Positions 1 through 31,880 of a stretch of 64,000 nt of DNA are shown piece after piece. Positions within the stretch are counted from its first letter, which is position 1. Every line of letters begins with the position of its first letter. This DNA is from Acholoe squamosa (Eukaryota > Annelida > Polychaeta > Phyllodocida > Polynoidae), in assembly GCA_949317995.1 (NCBI GenBank), contig OX439044.1:45650166-45714165 (forward strand), written 5' to 3'. The notes beneath the pieces are model-generated. The model did no database searches and was not told where the DNA came from. It worked only from the letters and a program-made list of their open reading frames with translations. Position numbers and translations under genes: made by a program.

Positions 1-2192
1 TTTGTTTTTGCCACATTTATAGACAATTTGTTTTGAATACACCATGTTGAGTAATTTTCTAAATCTTCCTGTAACAATCTTTTGGATAAATCAAAGTCAT
101 GATTAGAATTGTAAATTACAGTATCATCTGCGTAAAGCTTAACTTTACATGATTTAATACAATTTGTTACATCATTGACATATAGTAGAAACAATAAAGG
201 ACCCAATATTGAGCCTTGTGGGACTCCACAGACAACCTCCTCTTTGTCAGAAATAATTCTGTTTGCAAACACCATTTGTTTTCTATTACTTAGATAATCT
301 TTGAACCAGTGGTAGTTATCTGATCTTATTCCATAGTGGTGTATTTTTAATAGTAAGACAGAATGGTCTACCGTGTCAAAAGCCTTCCTAAGGTCTATAA
401 AGGCAGCAACCATAGAATTAGCTATATTTAGCTCCCTTTTAATATCATCCATAAATTTGGCTAGGGTATCAATTGTGCTAAAGCCAGAACGGAAACCACC
501 TTGGTTCTGAGTCAATATATTTTCTTTCATCAAGAAACCATAAACTCTATTATGTACAATTTTCTCAAGAAGTTTACAAGGTAAGAGTAGAATCGATATA
601 GGTCTATAGTTATTTACATATAAAGAATTACCAGCTTTGGGTATTGGGGTTATTTTTGAAATCTTCCATGAATTTGGTACACTATTTGAGGTAAAGGATA
701 GATTGTATAATTTGACCAATTTCTCAGGAATATGTTTAAAAACGATTTTAAGTATTGATGAGGAGATGTTATGAATAGCAGATGATTTAATAATGTTAAT
801 ATCGTTCACTAGCTTTAGTACTTCTTGTACATTGGTTTCCATGGGGTCCATTTGTGCTGTAACTTTTTTATCATAAGGTTGCCATGGAATGTTAAGATCT
901 TGGGCTAGGGTTGGACCAATGTTTGCAAAATAATTGTTTATGAATTTGGAGATATCTTCTTTAGGGACAGGTATGTCATTATTTTTATGGTCTACTAAAC
1001 GTATGTCTTTTTTTGAGTTTGGGTGGCCCGGTATAAGATTGTTTATAACACGCCAGAATTTTCTATGGTCATTTTTATATTCCACAAGTTGTTCTTTAAA
1101 GAAATTTTTCCTGGCTTTGTCAATAATTTTATTGGCTGTGTTTCTGGCATCGGTTGCCTGTTTCCATTTTAAATCTGTTTTTCCTTGTCTGGCTTTCCAA
1201 AGTATTTTGTTTTTGTCTCTTATAACTTCATAAATATTTTGTGTCATCCAAGGGTCTCGATATTTTTTTACTAGGAATTTGTGTAGGGGGGCATACTTAT
1301 CTAATATTTTTCTAATGATTTCTTCGATGCGGTTCCATGCAGTCTCAACTGATTGAGTGTTGTTGAAGGTAGACCAGTCAGCATTGTCTATTTCTCTGAG
1401 AAGTAAATCATTTGGAAGTTTGCTGTATGATCTTCCTTCAATATAGACCTTTTCCTCTACAATATTCCATTTTTTTCTAATAAGGAAAACAGGCAAGTGG
1501 TCTGAAATTATATTATTGGCAACACCAGCCTTTACAAAGTTCCGTCTTAAATTTGTGAAAATAAGGTCTAATGTGGCATTTTTACGCGTAGCCTCCGTTA
1601 TTTCTTGGTTTAGTCCAAAACTCTTCATCTTGTTTAGTAAATTATTAACAGCATCTGAATCTTCAATCACATTAAAATTGAAGTCACCCATAATTACAAC
1701 TTCCATATTATCATAATTATCTATAGATTCCATTTGGGTTAATAAATCAACCATTATTTCAGTGAAGTTTAACTTCGAGCCCTCAGGTGGTCTATATAGG
1801 TTTACAAGTAGAAGTGGTTTCAAGTTGGGCTTATTAATTAAAATTGTTTGTATTTCAATGAGTTCATTTGACATATTCAGAAGTTCAAAAGCATTATAAC
1901 TGTGGGGAATGGTATGTTTGATATAAATAGCTATTCCTCCCCCTGTTTTTATATTACCTCTATCATCTAGTGTTTGTCTATCTAACCTATATCTCGCATA
2001 TCCATTGAATTGATGATCACATTCATCGTCTTCTGCTCTAAACCAAGTTTCAGAGAAGGTATATATGTCAAGCAATGCTGGATATAATTCTGCACAAATA
2101 GAGGCATAGTTTGCTTTAATACTTCTGGCATTTAAATGCAGAATACGTAGGCCTCTGGTACCTTTAAGTTGGTCAATTGAGTTGTAGTGCAT
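1..2192 (-). CDS. LINE ORF2: APE endonuclease and reverse transcriptase, C-terminus outside window
   Basis: About 730 residues are readable without a stop. ATG at 2192-2190 is preceded in frame by TAA two codons upstream, which fixes the start. The APE-type endonuclease motifs are present: N21 in LHLNARS, E48 in FSETW, D170 and N172 in GDFN, and D231-H232 in SDH. The RT follows: NNYRPISIL, motif A IDLRKAFD with D600, GVPQGSILGPLLF, and motif C YADD at 687-690. The frame is the same at the start, motif A and motif C, so there is no net frameshift. The product would nick target DNA and copy its own RNA by target-primed reverse transcription. All catalytic residues I can check are kept, suggesting recent activity. 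The 3' UTR and tail are not visible. Confidence 0.93.
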   Translation of the reverse strand, partial: MHYNSIDQLKGTRGLRILHLNARSIKANYASICAELYPALLDIYTFSETWFRAEDDECDHQFNGYARYRLDRQTLDDRGNIKTGGGIAIYIKHTIPHSYNAFELLNMSNELIEIQTILINKPNLKPLLLVNLYRPPEGSKLNFTEIMVDLLTQMESIDNYDNMEVVIMGDFNFNVIEDSDAVNNLLNKMKSFGLNQEITEATRKNATLDLIFTNLRRNFVKAGVANNIISDHLPVFLIRKKWNIVEEKVYIEGRSYSKLPNDLLLREIDNADWSTFNNTQSVETAWNRIEEIIRKILDKYAPLHKFLVKKYRDPWMTQNIYEVIRDKNKILWKARQGKTDLKWKQATDARNTANKIIDKARKNFFKEQLVEYKNDHRKFWRVINNLIPGHPNSKKDIRLVDHKNNDIPVPKEDISKFINNYFANIGPTLAQDLNIPWQPYDKKVTAQMDPMETNVQEVLKLVNDINIIKSSAIHNISSSILKIVFKHIPEKLVKLYNLSFTSNSVPNSWKISKITPIPKAGNSLYVNNYRPISILLLPCKLLEKIVHNRVYGFLMKENILTQNQGGFRSGFSTIDTLAKFMDDIKRELNIANSMVAAFIDLRKAFDTVDHSVLLLKIHHYGIRSDNYHWFKDYLSNRKQMVFANRIISDKEEVVCGVPQGSILGPLLFLLYVNDVTNCIKSCKVKLYADDTVIYNSNHDFDLSKRLLQEDLENYSTWCIQNKLSINVAKT

Positions 2193-2379
2193 AGCGGTTT
2201 AGTATATTACCGGTACATATAATAGTTAATAATGTGGGACAATACATGAGATTTATGCTGTTTCCCCCATCCCTCAGGTCAGAATAATTATTTCTAGTCA
2301 GGTCATAGGCTTCGGCCTTTATGCCACCCATGTTGACAAATTCAAAATTTTCAGGGCTGTATGTAGTTATGAGTCGCAT
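2173..2379 (-). CDS. Small ORF overlapping the ORF2 start
   Basis: A 68-aa ATG-initiated frame lies between ORF1 and ORF2 and runs 20 nt past the ORF2 ATG in another frame (+1 relative). No domain is recognised. It could be an N-terminal ORF2 extension reached by frameshifting, a translational-coupling leader that delivers ribosomes to the ORF2 ATG, or chance. Overlapping ORF junctions are known in several LINE clades, but nothing here proves use. Confidence 0.35.
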   Translation of the reverse strand: MRLITTYSPENFEFVNMGGIKAEAYDLTRNNYSDLRDGGNSINLMYCPTLLTIICTGNILNRYALQLN

Positions 2380-2699
2380 AGGGGATCTCTACTTAAAAAA
2401 AAAGACAATGTATACAGGTAAATTTTGAGAAGTTTACAGATTGATAATGTATTATAAAACAATGTGTTGCGACAACAGCACGCAGAAGTTATAGTATATC
2501 TCAATGTAACAAGATCATTAGATTTCGATGGTTTACCCATGTCCACGAGCTTAAGGAATTAATGGGTAATTTTACTACCTTACATGTCATAGTATGGTGT
2601 ATAATATTCTACACTGATCAGTTGTTATCAAAAAGATAGATAGATAGGAGTTCATATAGCCATTTGTTGGGCATTTTGAAGTTTTATTTCTTCTTGAGT

Positions 2700-3180
2700 G
2701 GGTAGGGGATCTTCTCCAGTGAGTGAGCGCCTTACTTTGACTAGCAGCTCGCCTAGTTTGTTGTCACAGTCAGATTTAGAGACATTTTGTATGTTTATTT
2801 CCTCTTTCTGTCCCAGGTGGTGCCCGCATCCGTATGTTTTGTGGGTAGTGGCCTCATACAAGTATTTGCCTTTAGAGTTGATGAGTGAGTCTCGGAGGGC
2901 TGGGATGGAGAATTTGATGACTAGGAGCTTTTCCATTACTTCCTGTTCCATGTCTAGCCATTCGTTGCTTTTGGTACATGCCTTGGCTGCGTATAGGCAA
3001 TCCAGAGAAGTTGTAGCTGCTAATACCTTTCGTAGTACTGGCATTTCTTTTGAGACAAGACACATTTTAGCACTGTAAGCCCGCTCGATAGAGTCATATG
3101 AATGGCCTTCAAACAAGATCTCGCAGTTGTATAGGTTGGAGAATGGGGAGTATTCACCCCGGAAGGCAAGCCCATCAGGG
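2700..3180 (-). other. NADAR domain segment of ORF1
   Basis: This is the domain-coding part of ORF1. The conserved glutamate of the family (in SIERAY) and the N-x-LG-xLL-x-x-vR signature are present. The usual WG of the E-D-WG motif is YG, and the usual aspartate is not obvious. The frame has no stops, so the domain was still under selection, or only recently released, when this copy inserted. Confidence 0.82.
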
Positions 3181-3876
3181 GTATTAACAGTTTTAGCATT
3201 GGCTAACGAAAGGTCATGGGGCAGCTTGTCTATGTCCTTATATTGGTAGGTTTTGCCAGTGATTACAATCAAAGTTCCCCTGACTGTACAGTCTATTCCT
3301 TTAGATTTGCCCAGGGCTTGTATCGATCTAAGGTTTCTTTGCATTTTTTTTTCTTCTTGTGTAATGTCGTCCGAGAGGTGTACTCCTCTCCAGGTGTTGT
3401 TGTTCTTGAGCCTACTCACATTGCCAAAGATCTTCATCTTATATTGTGCGGAGGAAAATACTACCACAATCGGCCTAGATTTGGGTTTGAAGTGTGGGTT
3501 TCTTTTTTGTGCTGGAGTAGGGATTTGTTTTTTCCCTCTTCGATATACAGCATCAGCCACAGTGTTCGTAAAGTCTAGGCCCACATCATTAATTAGCTGG
3601 TCTAAAATATCTCGGAGGCTAGTGGGAGTATCTTCGATAATCCCTTCAATAATCAGAACCTTTTTGCGCCTTTCCTGCTCAATTTTAGAGAATTGTTCAC
3701 TATATTTGTCATTTTCAGTTTGGATTTTTGCCACATCCTGTTCGTTTTTAACTGTTTTATCACTGTAGGTATTCAGGGCTTGGTCAATATTGTCACATCT
3801 TTTATCAATTTCTTGCAGTGTGGGAGTTTTACCTGTTGGGAAGCCCTCAGGCCCGAATAGGCGTAGTTCCATACCG

Positions 3877-4260
3877 TGTATTATTTTATGTGAATAACTT
3901 CTTCCCATAGAGATAGCATTGCAGGGCCGATCCGCACACCCCCAGTGGCGTAACGTGTGCCAATCCACCACAGCGGCCGATCCGGTACCGTAGCCTCGTT
4001 CTGGGTGCATGTAAACATTCAAAATGGTGGACCGACGCTCGTACGGGGCAATACGGTAACGGATTTTGTTAATTTTCAGTTAATTAAAGACTCTAAAAAC
4101 ATAAAATAGATATAGAACTAAACTCCCCTGGTGTCCTCGGTGGCCGATCCACCCCTCGGGAGTTGTCTCCCCCTCGGGCTAACGCCCTCGGGGGAGACAA
4201 CTCCCTCGTGGTGGATCGGCCACCTCGTACACCACGGTCGTTTAGTTTTATCTATGTATT
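3877..4260. mobile_element. 372-bp insertion inside ORF1 with 6-bp target duplication
   Basis: TGTATT occurs at 3877-3882 and again at 4255-4260; the sequence between (3883-4254) is foreign. Deleting it with one TGTATT restores the ORF1 frame exactly, which strongly supports these borders. The right part is a hairpin (4106-4255); the left part has GGATCGGCC-type words that echo the hairpin stem. The ends are not clear inverted repeats, so the class is uncertain. Confidence 0.75.
4106..4255. repeat. Imperfect hairpin with CTCGGG-rich apex
   Basis: The left arm (from ATAGATATAGAACTAAAC) pairs with the right arm (to GTTTAGTTTTATCTAT). The inner stem GGGAGTTGTCTCCCC pairs with GGGGAGACAACTCCC, and the apex is CTCGGGCTAACGCCCTCGG. 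It is part of the ORF1 insert and resembles the other hairpins in the window. Confidence 0.8.
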
Positions 4261-4669
4261 CGCACTGTCCCTCTATTTATGTCTTCTTGGGATTTAATAC
4301 GTGCTTCCAGCTCATTTATTTTGTCAACAAGGACTTTTGTGCTTGCTTTGTAGTCAAGTTTCGGCAGATATTTGGGCTCATCTTCATCAGAGGATGGATT
4401 TTCTATTGTCATTTTAGAAGTTTTTGTTAGACCGGAAGTGCCTTCCGCCATATTGGATTTAACAGGTTGGGGGTCCGTTTGGGGAAGTGGTTTCGTACTT
4501 CTGGTTCGAGAGGGCATTTGAAACAAATATTTTCCAATATGAGTAGGATGTGTAGATTGTGTTTGAAGATTATAGTATTAAGGTTTGGAAGGATGTAATT
4601 GCCCTATTTAAGCTCAAGATTTGTACCGTTGATGTTGTTGTCGCGTTGTGGAGTCAACAGGCCATGGGC

Positions 4670-4682
4670 GCCGCCATCTTGG
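4670..4682 (-). promoter_or_regulatory. YY1/TISU-type element in LINE 5' region
   Basis: On the LINE strand the sequence CAAGATGGCGGC matches the TISU/YY1 consensus SAASATGGCGGC at all 12 positions. Mammalian L1 has a YY1 site at its very 5' end that positions transcription start. Here it lies about 150 bp upstream of the ORF1 ATG, so it may mark the LINE's internal promoter. Its own ATG opens only a six-codon frame. Confidence 0.5.
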
Positions 4683-4699
4683 AAAGATCGCTGACCCGG

Positions 4700-5406
4700 T
4701 TTCTTGGCGAAGATTGAAGTGTAAATAACGGTTGAAATTATAGTCCTGTGGCTCTATATACCTCTTTTTCTTGAACTTGGTAAGTTTAAATCTCAGGTTT
4801 CCTCATAAATATAGGTGAAGCAATCTCAGGTTGCTCGTAACTCGTAGAAGTCCCCGGAGCTCGTCGCCCTACGTTTCTAGCCGTGTGCCATTGTTTCGCA
4901 ACATACCAATTTCACCTTTTCACTGGATTGTGCCCTGATGCATACATTTCAATCTTTACTGTAATGCTACTGTTATTACTATGTAGAGGAACTATTTGAT
5001 ACTGAGAGTGTGATAACAATGTTCAGGAATGGTTTATTATAGTCAATATTAAAGGTCTATTGAAGCACAGCTAAACAAAGCCTCTTAAATGCAGGGTTGG
5101 GAATACTACTATTTTGATGGGATTTACAATATCCATGCATATTTATAGAAGACACTAAGTCTTATTCAGTTTTGAATTGATAATCCAATGAAAAGGGCTT
5201 TATTAAAAGTTGGTACCATGTGGAGGGCTCAAAGTGTAAAGTGGACGTCTCAAGGTGAAAATAGACTAGCTGGAATGTTTTTAAAGATGGTTGAAAACTG
5301 TAAACAAAATATAAACATGGGTTTAAGATATATGACAGGTACAAATGCCCAAACAATTATCTTTCATCCAGTACCTTGGGCAAATTTGAGGAACTATTAG
5401 TCTAAA
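4700..5406. other. Unassigned sequence 5' of the LINE
   Basis: No convincing gene. 4700-4900 may still be LINE 5' UTR. The rest is ordinary AT-rich sequence with only short chance frames. Confidence 0.4.
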
Positions 5407-5753: not shown

Positions 5754-8700
5754 TAAGAGTTATTAGCTACTACAAATCCCTCATTGAAAGCCTGTTCAGG
5801 AACGGTTGTCTTATGGTGAAGCTACCCTATTTCATGTAGGCCTACATGTTAACATTGACTTCTGTATCATTTAGGGCAACCAGCCATGATTTATGGTGAG
5901 TGAAGGGCTATAAAATGATGGGTTTGTGTTTTGGTTCCATCAGCTATGAATTCATCGCTTTGTATTGAATTGGGGAAAATAAGATAAGCCTCTTTAGCTA
6001 GACTCAAGGGTGATGTACCACAACTTATCCCCTAGCCCTGGAAAAACAAGTCGAGTCAGGCAAACCACTGGTTTCCAAGTTTTAACCAGGATGAGCTCTT
6101 CCAGATCCTATTGTGCATTCATGAAGTGGAGTGAAAGTAGCAATCAGCCTTACTTCAAAAAGTTCTCCAACAACACAACTTATTCATTGAATCACATAAG
6201 ATCACAACACCACTGAATTTCCATATGGATCTTCAATGAAACGATTTTCGCCATTCTTAAGGTTTCAATAATCTCCGGATTAGTAGTGCAATCTTACATG
6301 AGTTGTAAGTGCCCCATGGCCTATTAACCAACGCTTAGGTTGAACTATCAGCAATGGAGCATTGGACTATGTGTGAGTATTAACAAATTCTATAGATTTT
6401 GCATTGATTCATAAAGATTGTGTGCATGGAAATATAAGCCTTTGCTGGTTGAAAGAGTTGGGCACTGTCCACAGTCCTTAACGGAAGCATCCCTGAGTCT
6501 CAACTAATCCAATACTAGCCCTCTTCCATAATCCTAATCTCTGGATGTTAGCCTTGAACTGTTAATAATCTGAATCAAATTATCCTAGTCATGAGTCTTG
6601 TGGTTTCTATCTACCATAGGTATTTTCAATAGGCCTGTGCCCTTGCAGCAGCCGGGGTTAATCTCAGCTGTGCATTACCTTTTATACTTATTGATTGTCT
6701 TTTACTTTCTTTAATTATTGGCAGATTCACTAGCCCATGACAGCTACCTGCCCTGCCTAGCCACGCCATCAGCCATGCACACTTCTCCTAGCTGTCCTAA
6801 GATACCTCCATGGACGTGATCTGGAGTCCCCTGGCGCCATCTATACTCTCAGACACCTACAACTTTCCTCAAGCACTACTCCCTCTTTCTGGGCCATCTG
6901 GTGTTTCTTTCATTAACTACACACTAGAGGAATTTACATTGGTGTGCACACTCTGGCTCATTTGACTCCCACTCTCATAACTCTAAAGCATCATTATATT
7001 AGATACCACTATGGAAATCTTGCATCTAGACATCATAATTATCTCTGTGGTCATTGTAGGCCTACACTGTTAAAAAATTCCATAGATTTTACAGAGAATC
7101 ATTGTTAAATTTTACGGGGTTTTGCCATTATTTCTATTACAATGAAACACTGTTAGATTAAGTGATGTTACAGTGAATCTGTGTAAAACACTACGGAGAA
7201 GTGCCGTTATTTCTTTTACAGGGAATCTTCTTCTTTTTGGAAGTTTAATATCTTCTCACTAGGTGGCATTAGAGCTCACTTTGAGACTTTCTTCAATGTT
7301 CTAGACACTAAACAGATCAGATTGTACAAAATTCAAAAAGTATTCATTTTGGTTTATGCACCATTGTAATCCAAATAAAAGTCTACATAGTAGTTTCATA
7401 CATTTTTTATAAACAAAATATGATTCATCTTTGTGTGACAAAGGAGAGCAGCAGTGATATCATAGACACATTATGTGGTTATAGAAAAAAATACATAATT
7501 ATGCACACCACTGCAGTTTTCAGACCATCACAAGTCTGAGGGAATCTATGTTCTTAGATTGTTACTCTGAAGTTATGAAGGGAATGATGTGCTCCCCCCC
7601 AAGGACTCATTTAAAATCATAATGGTTATGATGTCCTCATATAAGGATGTTCAGATGAATCGTATGTGTAACCAAACCATATCTAACAATAACCTAATCC
7701 ATTGTGGATTTACAGTGAATGTGCATATGAAAAGTTAATACTTTATGGCATTGGAACCAAAACAATGTGTATTTAATTACCCTCAGTTATTGTTTAGAAA
7801 TAACTGAGAGGTAATAACGTTTTGTTTCCAGTTACATTTTTTTTTACATTTGTATAGGAAAAATTGGGGCAGATATAAAAACATGCATCAAATTCTTTGA
7901 TTTCATTGCAAGATAATAAACAAAAAATGTGACAAATGTAAATGACATGAACAATATGAATGATATATGCAAAATAGATGAAAAAAAATACAAAATCCTC
8001 AAAAAGTAATGAAAAATTTCTTTAAAATATGAAAAAACGAAAGACTTTTGGCCCTATTTTGCTAGGGTTGGTATAGTAACTGGAAACACAACTACTTTTT
8101 TAGGCCTTATATGAAGAGTGCTTGATCTTTTTAAAATTTTTATTAGTAGTACTAAATAGGCCCACTTGGTTATCCTAAATGATATAATCATGTTAGAGGT
8201 TTTACTTATACAATCACGAACATGTTTTGCAAGAGACTCCTTGCATAAATAATGCAGCCCATAAGGCATTTGTTCTCCTGTGATGTCATAGGCTGCATCA
8301 GAGATGCCTACCTCCTGCCCTTGCGCTAGCAAATGTAGTGATGAATATGTCAGAATCAATTCATTAGATGTAAAATTTACCAAATAAAGCCATTATGAAA
8401 ATAGGGTGGTCGTTTCTTTTAATCTATTCTAGCCTCTGGCTGGCAGGTGGTCCCTGACTGACTTCTTTCAGTCCTGATATCATGCTGGCGTTTTAATGGC
8501 ATGGCCAGTCCTGCTAGTGCGGACTTCATGTGTAGGACTATCTGCAGCTTTCTGTGCTGTGAGCTTTGCCATATTTTTAGTGGCATGAGTTCTGGGCCTA
8601 TTCTTTTGTTCCCTAGTGACTTTCACCCCCTTATCACTTCTTGGAGATGTCGTCTATTGTGACGTAGTGTATTGCCACTTGGGACCTTGACCACATACGA

Positions 8701-25843: not shown

Positions 25844-27744
25844 TGTAGCGGAATTCCCCGCAAAGGGTGGTGCGGGGTCTAGTACTTCTCGTTGTGTTCT
25901 TACTAAGAGGGGGGAACTAGAAAGCTCCAAGTTCGGACCACTAGGATGGCGTTAACACCAGGTCAAGGACATAAGACAACCTGGGGACTACAGTTATACA
26001 TTCTTTTATTCTAAAGTAAAATATTCAACAAGGTGGTCTCTATCAGTTACACTATATTTCTATATCAAACGGGCCAGGACATTGCTAAGCCCACACGTAG
26101 GTGATAACTATGGATAGGGGCCAGGTCTCCGCTAAGCCCAACGTAAATAAAGTTAAAGTTGATGGGGCCAGGACATCGCTAAGCCCACACGTATGTGATA
26201 ACTATGGATAGGGGGCCAGGTCTCCGCTAAGCCCAACATAAATAAAGTTAAAGTTGATGGGGCCAGGACATCGCTAAGCCCACACGTATATGACAACTAT
26301 GGATGGGGGCCAGGTCTCCGCTAAGCCCAACTTAAGTAAAGTTCAACGGCTCCTCCAGCCGAGCTAGGGATGGTCCGTAGAAGTTGAACGACTCTTGCCG
26401 GGGGACGTCGGTGTTGGGTGGAGCGGGGGTGACTCGGCCCTGCATTAAAGGTGTTCGGTTGAGTGATTCGGATTCATGTTAAAGTTGTTCGGTTCTGGTG
26501 GGGTGGACCCGAGAAGGTGCGACATGGCGTTTGGTTGAGTGACTCGGACTCATGTTAAAGTTGTTCTGTTCCAGTGGGCTGGACCCGGGAAGTTGCGACA
26601 CGGTGTTCAGTTGAGTGACTCGGACTCATGTTAAAGTTGTTCGGTTCCAGTGGGGTGGACCCGGGAAGGTGCGAAGACTGCTCCTGGTTGGTAGTGAGGT
26701 GGTGGAGACTGCTCCTTGTTGGCAGTGAGGCGGTGGAGACTGCTCCTTGTTAGCAGTGGGTTGGTGAGCTGGTGGTGAGTTGCTCCTAGTTGGCAGTGAG
26801 GTGGTGGAGACTGCTCCTTGTTAGCAGTGGGTTGGTGAGCTGGTGGTGAGTTGCTCCTAGTTGGCAGTGTGTGTGGTGAGAGCCAGTTTGGTTCTGCCTG
26901 ACTGAGCAGGCTGGACTGCTTATATAGAGCTTGGCTGGGCCTGACCACCTGACCAGCCCCAGCCAATGGGGGAGGGCCTAACAGGACCCTATAGGGCCCA
27001 ACAGGGCTCTGACAGGGCTGCCCTGATTGGCTGGAATTTCAGTCTGAATTTATGGAATAATGAGACAATTTCTTAAAAATACAACAATGCCATAATGGTC
27101 TATGACCCCAAGTTAGTGGGAGTCACTACTTGAATTATGTAAATATGTCCAGAATTGGCCATACTGGGGGTGCCAAATTTGGGGACTGGCTTGGGGCCAA
27201 AATGGCCACTGCCTCTATTTTCCCAGTCCAGATCAGGCTGTCAGTTGACTTAAAAATACAGTGGTTTGCACTAATATTTTGTCAATAAAACTAAAGAGGC
27301 TACTTTAATTAAAGTCATATCTAACCATAGTGCTACTTTAAATTGTGTGACTTTGTGCAGATAAGGCATATTTTACAAAGCTTGGGTAGAAACAGGGCCC
27401 CGCGTGCGGACCGGTTACTTCAGTCCCTGTCCACAAGTGACAGGGTGAAGAAGGAAGCTGGAGTGCTGTCACTGTTTCATCAAAATATACCCCTAAACTA
27501 AAGAATACAGACTAAACAAAGGTTGGTAGGGGTGCCTAAACTTCCAGTCCACCTCCCTGACTATGACATAAAAGTTGTCTTAGTGTAGATTTGTGAGATT
27601 GATGTGGGAAAGAAGGTCGCTGCATGGGCGAAAATAGGGGTAACTGCGGACAGGGCTCCCGTGAAGAGTGGCAGGTCCCCGGGGGGAGGGCTGGGGCAGC
27701 CCGGCAAGGGATGGGAGCGGTTGACGCCGTGCATTCTCGTCACA
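25844..27744 (-). repeat. 3' LTR
   Basis: 1901 bp. It holds three tandem arrays: about 94-bp units from 26071 (GGGCCAGGACATCGCTAAGC), 77-bp units from about 26453 (GTTCGGTTGAGTGA) and shorter GACTGCTCCTTGTT units (26680-26875). A TATA box (CTATATAAGC on the minus strand) is at 26919-26928. The 111-codon frame at 26631-26966 is made of the repeats and is not counted as a gene. Confidence 0.93.
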
Positions 27745-29006: not shown

Positions 29007-29855
29007 TCAGGCGGTCTCAATTTCTGTGGGATGTTCCCGAGGGGTGCTCTGCTGCCTTTTTGGTTTCTCAGTTTCTTCAAAAGAATGGAAGTCGACTGCA
29101 ATGTCTATAGCTTCTGTTAAGCTTTTTGGCTTACTCAGGTGGACATGGCAACGAAGGTCCTTGGACTGGAGTCCTCGGATAAAATGGTCAATCAGAGCTC
29201 TCTGGCTTAGGGCGCTATCAGGGTAGGCCCTATGTGCTAGGCGTCTGATTGCGGCACCATACTTGGGGACCGACTTGTTCGGACTCATGGCACGAGTATG
29301 AAGCTGGAGGGAGTATGAACTCTCCCTTCCAGGTGGGTAGAACCGTTGCTTCAGTGCAGTTTCGAGGGCCTCTCGGTCACACTGAAGGTGTTCCGGTAGC
29401 GAAGAAAGTACCTCACGTGCATCCTCTACAAGCGAACACGCCAACTGCAAACCGTACTCATCGTCTTCCCAACCATTCCAGACAGCAACACTGCGGAAGT
29501 GGCTGAGCCAATCGGGCAGGTCTGACTTGCCATTGTAGCGCATCGGTTCCTTAGCCTTCCTTCGGTATGGGGGTCCCATCGGTGGGTGCCTTGGGCGAGG
29601 AGTATCCACAGGGGGAGGATAATCTGTGCTTGCTACTTCGGGTACCCGTCTGAGGGTAAGTAGAGACTGTATGGAGCTGCTCCGGGACAAGTTGCCTTGA
29701 GGCCATTGACTCTCAGGAGTCTCGGGCATCTGGCAAAACCCTCCCTCAGCTCCCGGCTCTAAACTCAGCGATCTTCTAGTTTGCACCTCGGGCATCTGGG
29801 ACTGAGGTGAAAATAAATTCTGCAAGGCAGTGAAACTTTTACTAAGAAAGTTCAT
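29007..29855 (-). CDS. Gag-like protein of the LTR element
   Basis: A 282-aa ORF with an ATG 124 bp inside the 5' LTR. Residues 1-100 are proline- and serine-rich. From about 105 a retrotransposon-gag capsid domain follows: MRYNGKSDLPDWLSHFRSV, then ACSLVEDAREVLSSLPEHL, ALKQRFYPPG, RLAHRAYPD and DHFIRGLQSKDLR. This matches Ty3/gypsy capsid genes of invertebrates. It ends before any CCHC nucleocapsid knuckle, so it is shorter than a full Gag and probably cannot package RNA through that motif. The frame is intact, and codon use is GC-richer than the flanks. It would form the particle shell with enzymes supplied in trans. Confidence 0.85.
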   Translation of the reverse strand: MNFLSKSFTALQNLFSPQSQMPEVQTRRSLSLEPGAEGGFCQMPETPESQWPQGNLSRSSSIQSLLTLRRVPEVASTDYPPPVDTPRPRHPPMGPPYRRKAKEPMRYNGKSDLPDWLSHFRSVAVWNGWEDDEYGLQLACSLVEDAREVLSSLPEHLQCDREALETALKQRFYPPGRESSYSLQLHTRAMSPNKSVPKYGAAIRRLAHRAYPDSALSQRALIDHFIRGLQSKDLRCHVHLSKPKSLTEAIDIAVDFHSFEETEKPKRQQSTPREHPTEIETA

Positions 29856-29979: not shown

Positions 29980-31880
29980 TGTAGCGGAATTCCCCGCAAA
30001 GGGTGGTGCGGGGTCTAGTACTTCTCGTTGTGTTCTTACTAAGAGGGGGGAACTAGAAAGCTCCAAGTTCGGACCACTAGGATGGCGTTAACACCAGGTC
30101 AAGGACATAAGACAACCTGGGGACTACAGTTATACATTCTTTTATTCTAAAGTAAAATATTCAACAAGGTGGTCTCTATCAGTTACACTATATTTCTATA
30201 TCAAACGGGCCAGGACATTGCTAAGCCCACACATAGGTGATAACTATGGATAGGGGCCAGGTCTCCGCTAAGCCCAACGTAAATAAAGTTAAAGTTGATG
30301 GGGCCAGGACATCGCTAAGCCCACACGTATGTGATAACTATGGATAGGGGGCCAGGTCTCCGCTAAGCCCAACATAAATAAAGTTAAAGTTGATGGGGCC
30401 AGGACATCGCTAAGCCCACACGTATATGACAACTATGGATGGGGGCCAGGTCTCCGCTAAGCCCAACTTAAGTAAAGTTCAACGGCTCCTCCAGCCGAGC
30501 TAGGGATGGTCCGTAGAAGTTGAACGACTCTTGCCGGGGGACGTCGGTGTTGGGTGGAGCGGGGGTGACTCGGCCCTGCATTAAAGGTGTTCGGTTGAGT
30601 GATTCGGATTCATGTTAAAGTTGTTCGGTTCTGGTGGGGTGGACCCGAGAAGGTGCGACATGGCGTTTGGTTGAGTGACTCGGACTCATGTTAAAGTTGT
30701 TCTGTTCCAGTGGGCTGGACCCGGGAAGTTGCGACACGGTGTTCAGTTGAGTGACTCGGACTCATGTTAAAGTTGTTCGGTTCCAGTGGGGTGGACCCGG
30801 GAAGGTGCGAAGACTGCTCCTGGTTGGTAGTGAGGTGGTGGAGACTGCTCCTTGTTGGCAGTGAGGCGGTGGAGACTGCTCCTTGTTAGCAGTGGGTTGG
30901 TGAGCTGGTGGTGAGTTGCTCCTAGTTGGCAGTGAGGTGGTGGAGACTGCTCCTTGTTAGCAGTGGGTTGGTGAGCTGGTGGTGAGTTGCTCCTAGTTGG
31001 CAGTGTGTGTGGTGAGAGCCAGTTTGGTTCTGCCTGACTGAGCAGGCTGGACTGCTTATATAGAGCTTGGCTGGGCCTGACCACCTGACCAGCCCCAGCC
31101 AATGGGGGAGGGCCTAACAGGACCCTATAGGGCCCAACAGGGCTCTGACAGGGCTGCCCTGATTGGCTGGAATTTCAGTCTGAATTTATGGAATAATGAG
31201 ACAATTTCTTAAAAATACAACAATGCCATAATGGTCTATGACCCCAAGTTAGTGGGAGTCACTACTTGAATTATGTAAATATGTCCAGAATTGGCCATAC
31301 TGGGGGTGCCAAATTTGGGGACTGGCTTGGGGCCAAAATGGCCACTGCCTCTATTTTCCCAGTCCAGATCAGGCTGTCAGTTGACTTAAAAATACAGTGG
31401 TTTGCACTAATATTTTGTCAATAAAACTAAAGAGGCTACTTTAATTAAAGTCATATCTAACCATAGTGCTACTTTAAATTGTGTGACTTTGTGCAGATAA
31501 GGCATATTTTACAAAGCTTGGGTAGAAACAGGGCCCCGCGTGCGGACCGGTTACTTCAGTCCCTGTCCACAAGTGACAGGGTGAAGAAGGAAGCTGGAGT
31601 GCTGTCACTGTTTCATCAAAATATACCCCTAAACTAAAGAATACAGACTAAACAAAGGTTGGTAGGGGTGCCTAAACTTCCAGTCCACCTCCCTGACTAT
31701 GACATAAAAGTTGTCTTAGTGTAGATTTGTGAGATTGATGTGGGAAAGAAGGTCGCTGCATGGGCGAAAATAGGGGTAACTGCGGACAGGGCTCCCGTGA
31801 AGAGTGGCAGGTCCCCGGGGGGAGGGCTGGGGCAGCCCGGCAAGGGATGGGAGCGGTTGACGCCGTGCATTCTCGTCACA
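29980..31880 (-). repeat. 5' LTR
   Basis: Same length and internal arrays as the 3' LTR. The only difference I noticed is CACATAGG here against CACGTAGG near 26.09 kb. Its TATA box is at the equivalent place (about 31055-31064) and would drive leftward transcription through gag. Confidence 0.93.

Follow-up and report, generated by a model that had tools for sequence, protein, structure and literature searches.

A NADAR domain under purifying selection in the L1-like ORF1 of a LINE family of Acholoe squamosa, and its possible role in ADP-ribose removal

One end of the window (the whole stretch of 64,000 nucleotides of Acholoe squamosa DNA analysed here) raises the question of why the ORF1 of a LINE should carry a NADAR domain at its C-terminus, and whether this combination is a working part of the element or an accident of a single copy. 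The first-pass annotation had read positions 2652-4517 as one open frame; this was refuted, as the N-terminus and the body of ORF1 are parted by an insertion of about 370 bp. The corrected layout is as follows:

1-4901, minus strand: LINE element that starts (5') near 4901 and extends (3') about 1 kb past the left edge of the window
3-2198, minus strand: ORF2 with endonuclease and start of the reverse transcriptase, truncated at the window edge
about 2655-3887, minus strand: ORF1 body with coiled-coil part, RRM, CTD and NADAR (Pfam and profile matches)
2721-3155, minus strand: NADAR domain (PF08719, E=7.3e-13; profile match to 8bau, E=1.8e-14)
3201-3887, minus strand: coiled coil, RRM and CTD, L1-ORF1p-like (profile match to 2ykp/2yko, E=1e-5; borders drawn by eye)
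3886-4255, no strand assigned: insertion of about 370 bp within ORF1 of the window copy, absent at L032 and L035
4256-4517, minus strand: N-terminal part of ORF1 (MPSRTRSTK..., from translation), with a similar N-terminus present in 24 of the 29 open copies

The ends of the element were set by similarity to five relatives (start at oriented positions 630-647 of L031, stop near 6577), and no second copy of the NADAR-ORF1 was found within the window. The insertion contains GC-rich stretches, and most of a foldback with two 77-nt arms (4103-4179 and 4184-4260, 79% complementary) lies inside it; inspection by eye revealed no clear target-site duplication at its borders. Elsewhere in the window, a gag-like ORF on the minus strand (29007-29855) matches Ty3_capsid (PF19259, E=2.4e-7) and is flanked by two occurrences of the same 111-amino-acid frame on that strand, about 4.1 kb apart (26631-26966 and 30767-31102); the two might represent terminal repeats of an LTR element.

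The domain calls themselves had been a C-terminal NADAR in an ORF1 that is otherwise L1-like. Residues 291-435 of the window's ORF1 protein (P0001) score 49.5 bits against PF08719 (hmmscan against Pfam; cut-off 35.1, E=7.3e-13), five related ORF1s (L043, L012, L048, P0003, P0004) score between 47.6 and 69.8 bits, and a profile of P0001 together with P0003-P0005 matches the ADP-ribose-bound NADAR structure 8bau with E=1.8e-14. Ahead of the NADAR region, the same profile matches human LINE-1 ORF1p (2ykp/2yko, E=1e-5) over the coiled coil, the RRM and part of the CTD. With P0001 alone as query, YbiA (2b3w) was found at E=0.09 and no L1 match was obtained, and the single-protein Pfam scan detected no other family in the ORF1 body at E<=1, the L1 ORF1 model included. 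In view of the two profile matches, both calls were therefore right, with the L1-like part recognizable at the profile level and not by a Pfam match of the single protein. The ORF1 of the window family is predicted to have the type II (L1-like) architecture of coiled coil, RRM and CTD, which is given for the L1, CR1, L2 and R1 clades in the accessible part of a classification of Jockey superfamily ORF1s (PMC4120745). The coiled coil-RRM-CTD unit is what the two have in common, while the NADAR domain is extra in the window family; the subtypes IIB and IIC of that classification add a PHD, and the terms NADAR, YbiA and DUF1768 are absent from its main text.

Comparison of P0001 with the animal's own genome (1.48 Gb) yielded at least 94 matches, 81 of them without an internal stop in the matched part, a count that is a lower bound, as scoring covered 93 of the 7797 first-look candidates, and that includes the window's own entry and two pieces of one place. 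The ORF1 body is open to its end in 29 of the 37 loci read, and the usual N-terminus is in frame in 24 of these 29 open copies, L015, L016, L022, L032 and the window copy being the others. An ORF2 follows downstream on the same strand at all 20 loci that were extended in the 3' direction, the window's included, although it is broken or partial in several. Full-length copies with both ORFs open are 99.1% identical over 5687 bp (L033 and L036) and 99.5% identical over 5450 bp (L043 and L047), and because of this near-identity the window family has presumably been mobile recently. The 5' and 3' ends of the element look alike between families by eye. In the 3' UTR, a 59-60-nt segment whose ends are complementary (AGGTAGGACC ... 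GGTCC..TACCT) is conserved across two diverged families (oriented positions 6146-6205 in L033, 6127-6186 in L036, 5971-6029 in L043 and 5976-6034 in L047) and is possibly a 3' recognition hairpin.

The NADAR domain is under strong purifying selection, about as strict as that on the RNA-binding part of the protein. In a codon model that took 11 of the 29 open copies as representatives (18 near-identical copies and the 8 of 37 loci with early stops were left out), omega was 0.087 for the coiled coil, 0.058 for the RRM, 0.053 for the CTD and 0.059 for NADAR on a deep tree of about 11 changes per codon, which is possibly saturated at silent sites; in three subgroups of three sequences each, which are less so (0.9-1.2 changes per codon for NADAR), omega was 0.057, 0.055 and 0.069 for NADAR. 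The corresponding RRM values were 0.092, 0.033 and 0.101. Fixing omega at 1 with kappa held lowered the log-likelihood for NADAR from -2841.0 to -3180.3. Being real, recurrent and selected, the fusion is likely to serve a function within the element.

To which kind of element does this ORF1 belong? ORF2 of L043 matches PF14529 (Exo_endo_phos_2, 1.8e-6) and PF00078 (RVT_1, 3.6e-41), and both families were also found in ORF2 of L033; judged by this predicted APE-type endonuclease and reverse transcriptase, the window family is a non-LTR retrotransposon (LINE). The best match of the L043 endonuclease to an L1 endonuclease is not significant (E=0.18), and by its endonuclease the family would not fall into the L1/Tx1 group. 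The reverse transcriptase of the L043 type scores 53.4 bits to L1 ORF2p and 56.1 bits to an R2 protein, and the C-terminal pattern of ORF2 looks, as we presume, CR1/L2-like.

NADAR domains are not confined to this family. The Pfam NADAR model gave at least 150 matches in the same genome (from 3224 first-look candidates), with scores from 86 to 184 bits, all of them above the 49.5 bits of the window's domain, and eight of these loci were read (L051-L058). Two of them, L051 (1486-2151; G000:C17:9901769) and L052 (G000:C14:682108), hold stand-alone NADAR frames with the canonical motif EASPxDxxWG and are probably cellular genes. In L057, a frame that joins a CTD-like part to a NADAR with the canonical motif is followed by an endonuclease of the L1 group (E=7.7e-25 to human L1 ORF2p), this one locus being the sole link to an L1-group endonuclease; between the endonucleases of L043 and L057 at best one 42-residue piece could be aligned (E=0.028 for the pair). 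The other five loci resemble the coiled coil-RRM-CTD-NADAR type, L053-L055 by eye (their frames are broken) and L056 and L058 by profile. Downstream of the NADAR-ORF1 in L054, L056 and L058 lies an ORF of 214-305 amino acids, which is weakly GDSL-like (a sub-threshold Pfam match of 14.6 bits against a cut-off of 32.9 in one of three proteins) and for which no convincing PDB match was found. Of the 150 NADAR places listed, 25 (the query's own included) are followed on their strand, at a distance of at most 3 kb, by a relative of this ORF; no pair was found in the control orientations. Seen from the ORF, 31 of its 77 matches are placed downstream of NADAR and 46 lie near none of the NADAR places listed. 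At several places, two diverged copies of the ORF are neighbours. Examples of its places are:

G000:C17:60159369-60160965: GDSL-like ORF
G000:C12:25777566-25778904: GDSL-like ORF
G000:C51:42737-44155: GDSL-like ORF

The combination of coiled coil, RRM, CTD and NADAR is thus predicted for at least two kinds of mobile element in this genome, and the question arises whether it originated once or several times. In profile comparisons, the window type and the GDSL-associated type align over RRM, CTD and NADAR (300 columns, E=5e-34), and the window type and L057 align over CTD and NADAR (215 columns, E=8e-19). The junction from the LP at the end of the CTD to the SN of NADAR measures 30 residues in all 11 sequences that hold the region (16 were looked at) and, by a stricter pattern, in 27 of the 29 open window-type copies, the other two of which do not match the pattern. 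The same junction is present in the database proteins P0003, P0004 and P0008, and a further database record, P0005, contains the end of a NADAR-ORF1 followed by a piece that matches the ORF2 of the window family; the protein searches behind these records returned 3, 4 and 7 entries, and P0003-P0013 may come from the window's own species. No relatives were confirmed in the collections of viral contigs and genome contigs. The profile alignments, the constant junction and the order of parts in P0005 favour a single old fusion, which would imply either exchange of ORF1 between LINE groups or great age. A tree of 16 NADAR sequences did not place the origin of the fusion because its forks are open and one row, L057, is long.

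The finding that had been named as fatal to the fusion, a single copy with a recombination junction in it, is excluded by the genome matches and the 81 of them that are free of internal stops. A chance fusion or a single-copy pseudogene artefact, to which the split of the window copy by an insertion might have pointed, has a negligible probability in the face of at least 94 matches, an omega of 0.06 and the recurrence of the junction in P0003, P0004 and P0008. A frame artefact is likewise ruled out by the PF08719 match, the genome matches and omega.

The fusion of NADAR with a LINE ORF1 as such is already in print. According to the accessible part of a report from 2025 (PMC12477816), NADAR occurs in ORF1 of several Tx1 families of Crassostrea gigas and in the Gypsy Pol of Ectocarpus, and a role in processing RNA intermediates is suggested there for retroelement NADARs. 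The oyster elements resemble the window family in being LINEs whose ORF1 carries a NADAR of the YbiA family; however, that text names Tx1 only, whereas the endonuclease of the window family is not L1-like, a comparison made by description. The Ectocarpus element is likewise a retroelement with NADAR, but an LTR element and from a brown alga. NADAR domains are also described from RNA viruses of invertebrates, where a targeting of host ADP-ribosylation is supported (PMC9503650, as far as its accessible text goes). As far as our searches show, and subscription papers and Repbase aside, what is new here is the occurrence in a LINE with a non-L1 endonuclease, the evidence for selection, the changed pocket contacts and the pairing of NADAR-ORF1 with a GDSL-like ORF.

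Whether the domain could act as an enzyme was judged from its pocket. The pocket positions were assigned manually on the profile alignment with 8bau, the chain numbering being taken to differ by 2 from that of the publication, an offset under which the residues named there fit. 8bau, the best match among solved structures, is the NADAR of Phytophthora nicotianae with ADP-ribose, and in the accessible part of the study describing it eukaryotic NADARs are reported to de-ADP-ribosylate guanine (PMC11543638). The residues named there as catalysing correspond to the E43, K50 and E125 positions: efficient activity needed D171 (the E125 position) and K95 (the K50 position), while at the E43 position E88A made only a small difference in vitro, E88Q abolished activity and neither of the two rescued from toxicity. 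W133, R93 and, via water, D130 contact the pyrophosphate. The window family belongs to the same protein family as this enzyme and keeps the E43, W89 and E125 positions, but differs from it in being fused to an ORF1 and in changes at D130, W133, R93 and K75 and a shift of the K50 lysine.

In all 29 open copies, E is found at the two distal-ribose positions, E43 and E125 (E314 and E391 in P0001); the R79 position is K or R, the D86 position D or E, and the W89 position W in 10 of 11 representatives. A comparison of 16 NADARs shows E125 retained in all of them and E43 in 15 (P0007 has K). The D130 position is H and the W133 position Y in 29 of 29 open copies, and the motif D-x-x-W-G is accordingly absent; equally constant is the acidic residue (D or E) at the R93 position, while K75 is replaced by I, L or M. 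The lysine of the K50 position is displaced by one position, K standing at +6 in all 29 copies and K or M at +7. With R93, D130 and W133 altered, a canonical active site becomes less likely; membership in the NADAR family, which is defined by profile, is not affected.

The expected WG had been noted to read YG, and indeed Y stands at the W133 position; from this it had been argued that the domain may bind without catalysis. YG alone is no strong argument against catalysis, as W133 is a pyrophosphate contact and E43 and E125 are kept, although the acidic residue at R93 weighs on the other side; the E at E43 is itself weak evidence for catalysis, given the minor in vitro effect of E88A. Catalysis by the window-type NADAR is thus possible. 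Alternatively, the domain might bind ADP-ribose or NAD-derived ligands, leaving them uncut, and anchor the RNP, for example, to chromatin with active PARPs. A pocket in which H replaces D130 and Y replaces W133, with the E43, R79, D86, W89 and E125 positions unchanged in character, is what such a reader might look like, and so is strong constraint despite a non-canonical motif. However, E125 is kept, and its equivalent D171 is needed for activity (PMC11543638, accessible part); the changed R93 and shifted K50 are contacts for binding too, which makes even binding uncertain; and L057 and the stand-alone L051 and L052 retain the D and W of the motif. We regard a mere reader or anchor as possible but not probable.

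A second alternative dispenses with the ligand: the NADAR fold might have been recruited for nucleic-acid binding or for assembly of ORF1p, with a pocket of no importance. Invariance at the pocket positions does not exceed that of the rest of the domain (5 of 8, p=0.18), several ligand contacts are changed, and NADAR follows directly on the RRM-CTD unit at a fixed distance, all as a structural role would have it. Against this, the two acidic ligand residues are invariant in the 29 open copies and likewise kept in P0003 and P0004, and we consider the purely structural explanation unlikely. Bacterial and plant NADARs act as N-glycosidases in damage control during riboflavin synthesis (PMC11543638, accessible part), and as such activity is stated for the family, the element might simply carry along an enzyme for small metabolites. 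A protein that coats RNA would have no obvious reason to keep this activity under such constraint, and this explanation is very improbable.

The reading we put forward, to which we give about an even chance, is that a selected ORF1 of coiled coil, RRM, CTD and NADAR uses the last as an ADP-ribose eraser on the retrotransposon RNP. ORF1p would coat the RNA of the element, so that NADAR would sit on the RNP. There it would recognize ADP-ribose on nucleic acid, most likely on guanine of the element's RNA, its cDNA or the target DNA, and hydrolyse the bond between the two, protecting the element from a putative ADP-ribosylation by the host. Removal of ADP-ribose by the ORF1 NADAR had been proposed in the first-pass annotation; a recurrent, selected fusion, the match to 8bau and the reported activity of eukaryotic NADARs on guanine make it plausible, but catalysis is predicted from the residues only and pocket contacts are changed. 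With its altered pocket (H at D130, Y at W133, D or E at R93, the K50 lysine shifted), the activity in the window lineage may be weaker or of another specificity. Going one step further, the unit of coiled coil, RRM, CTD and NADAR might be a mobile ORF1 cassette that moved among unrelated groups of retroelements (an L1-group LINE, a non-L1 LINE and the GDSL-associated units) because it reverses a host defence by ADP-ribosylation of retroelement nucleic acid, an extension that we regard as doubtful.

The family ties retrotransposon RNPs to ADP-ribose chemistry in a concrete way that selection has maintained. The same junction beside different endonucleases suggests that ORF1 was exchanged between LINE groups or is very old. 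To our knowledge, there is no direct evidence for host nucleic-acid ADP-ribosylation acting against transposons; if the domain is active, such modification would be a force against them. As open, near-identical copies exist, the function could be tested with a published NADAR assay. If the unit is indeed a cassette that moved among elements, reversible ADP-ribosylation of nucleic acids would be a hitherto unknown layer of transposon control in the host lineage.
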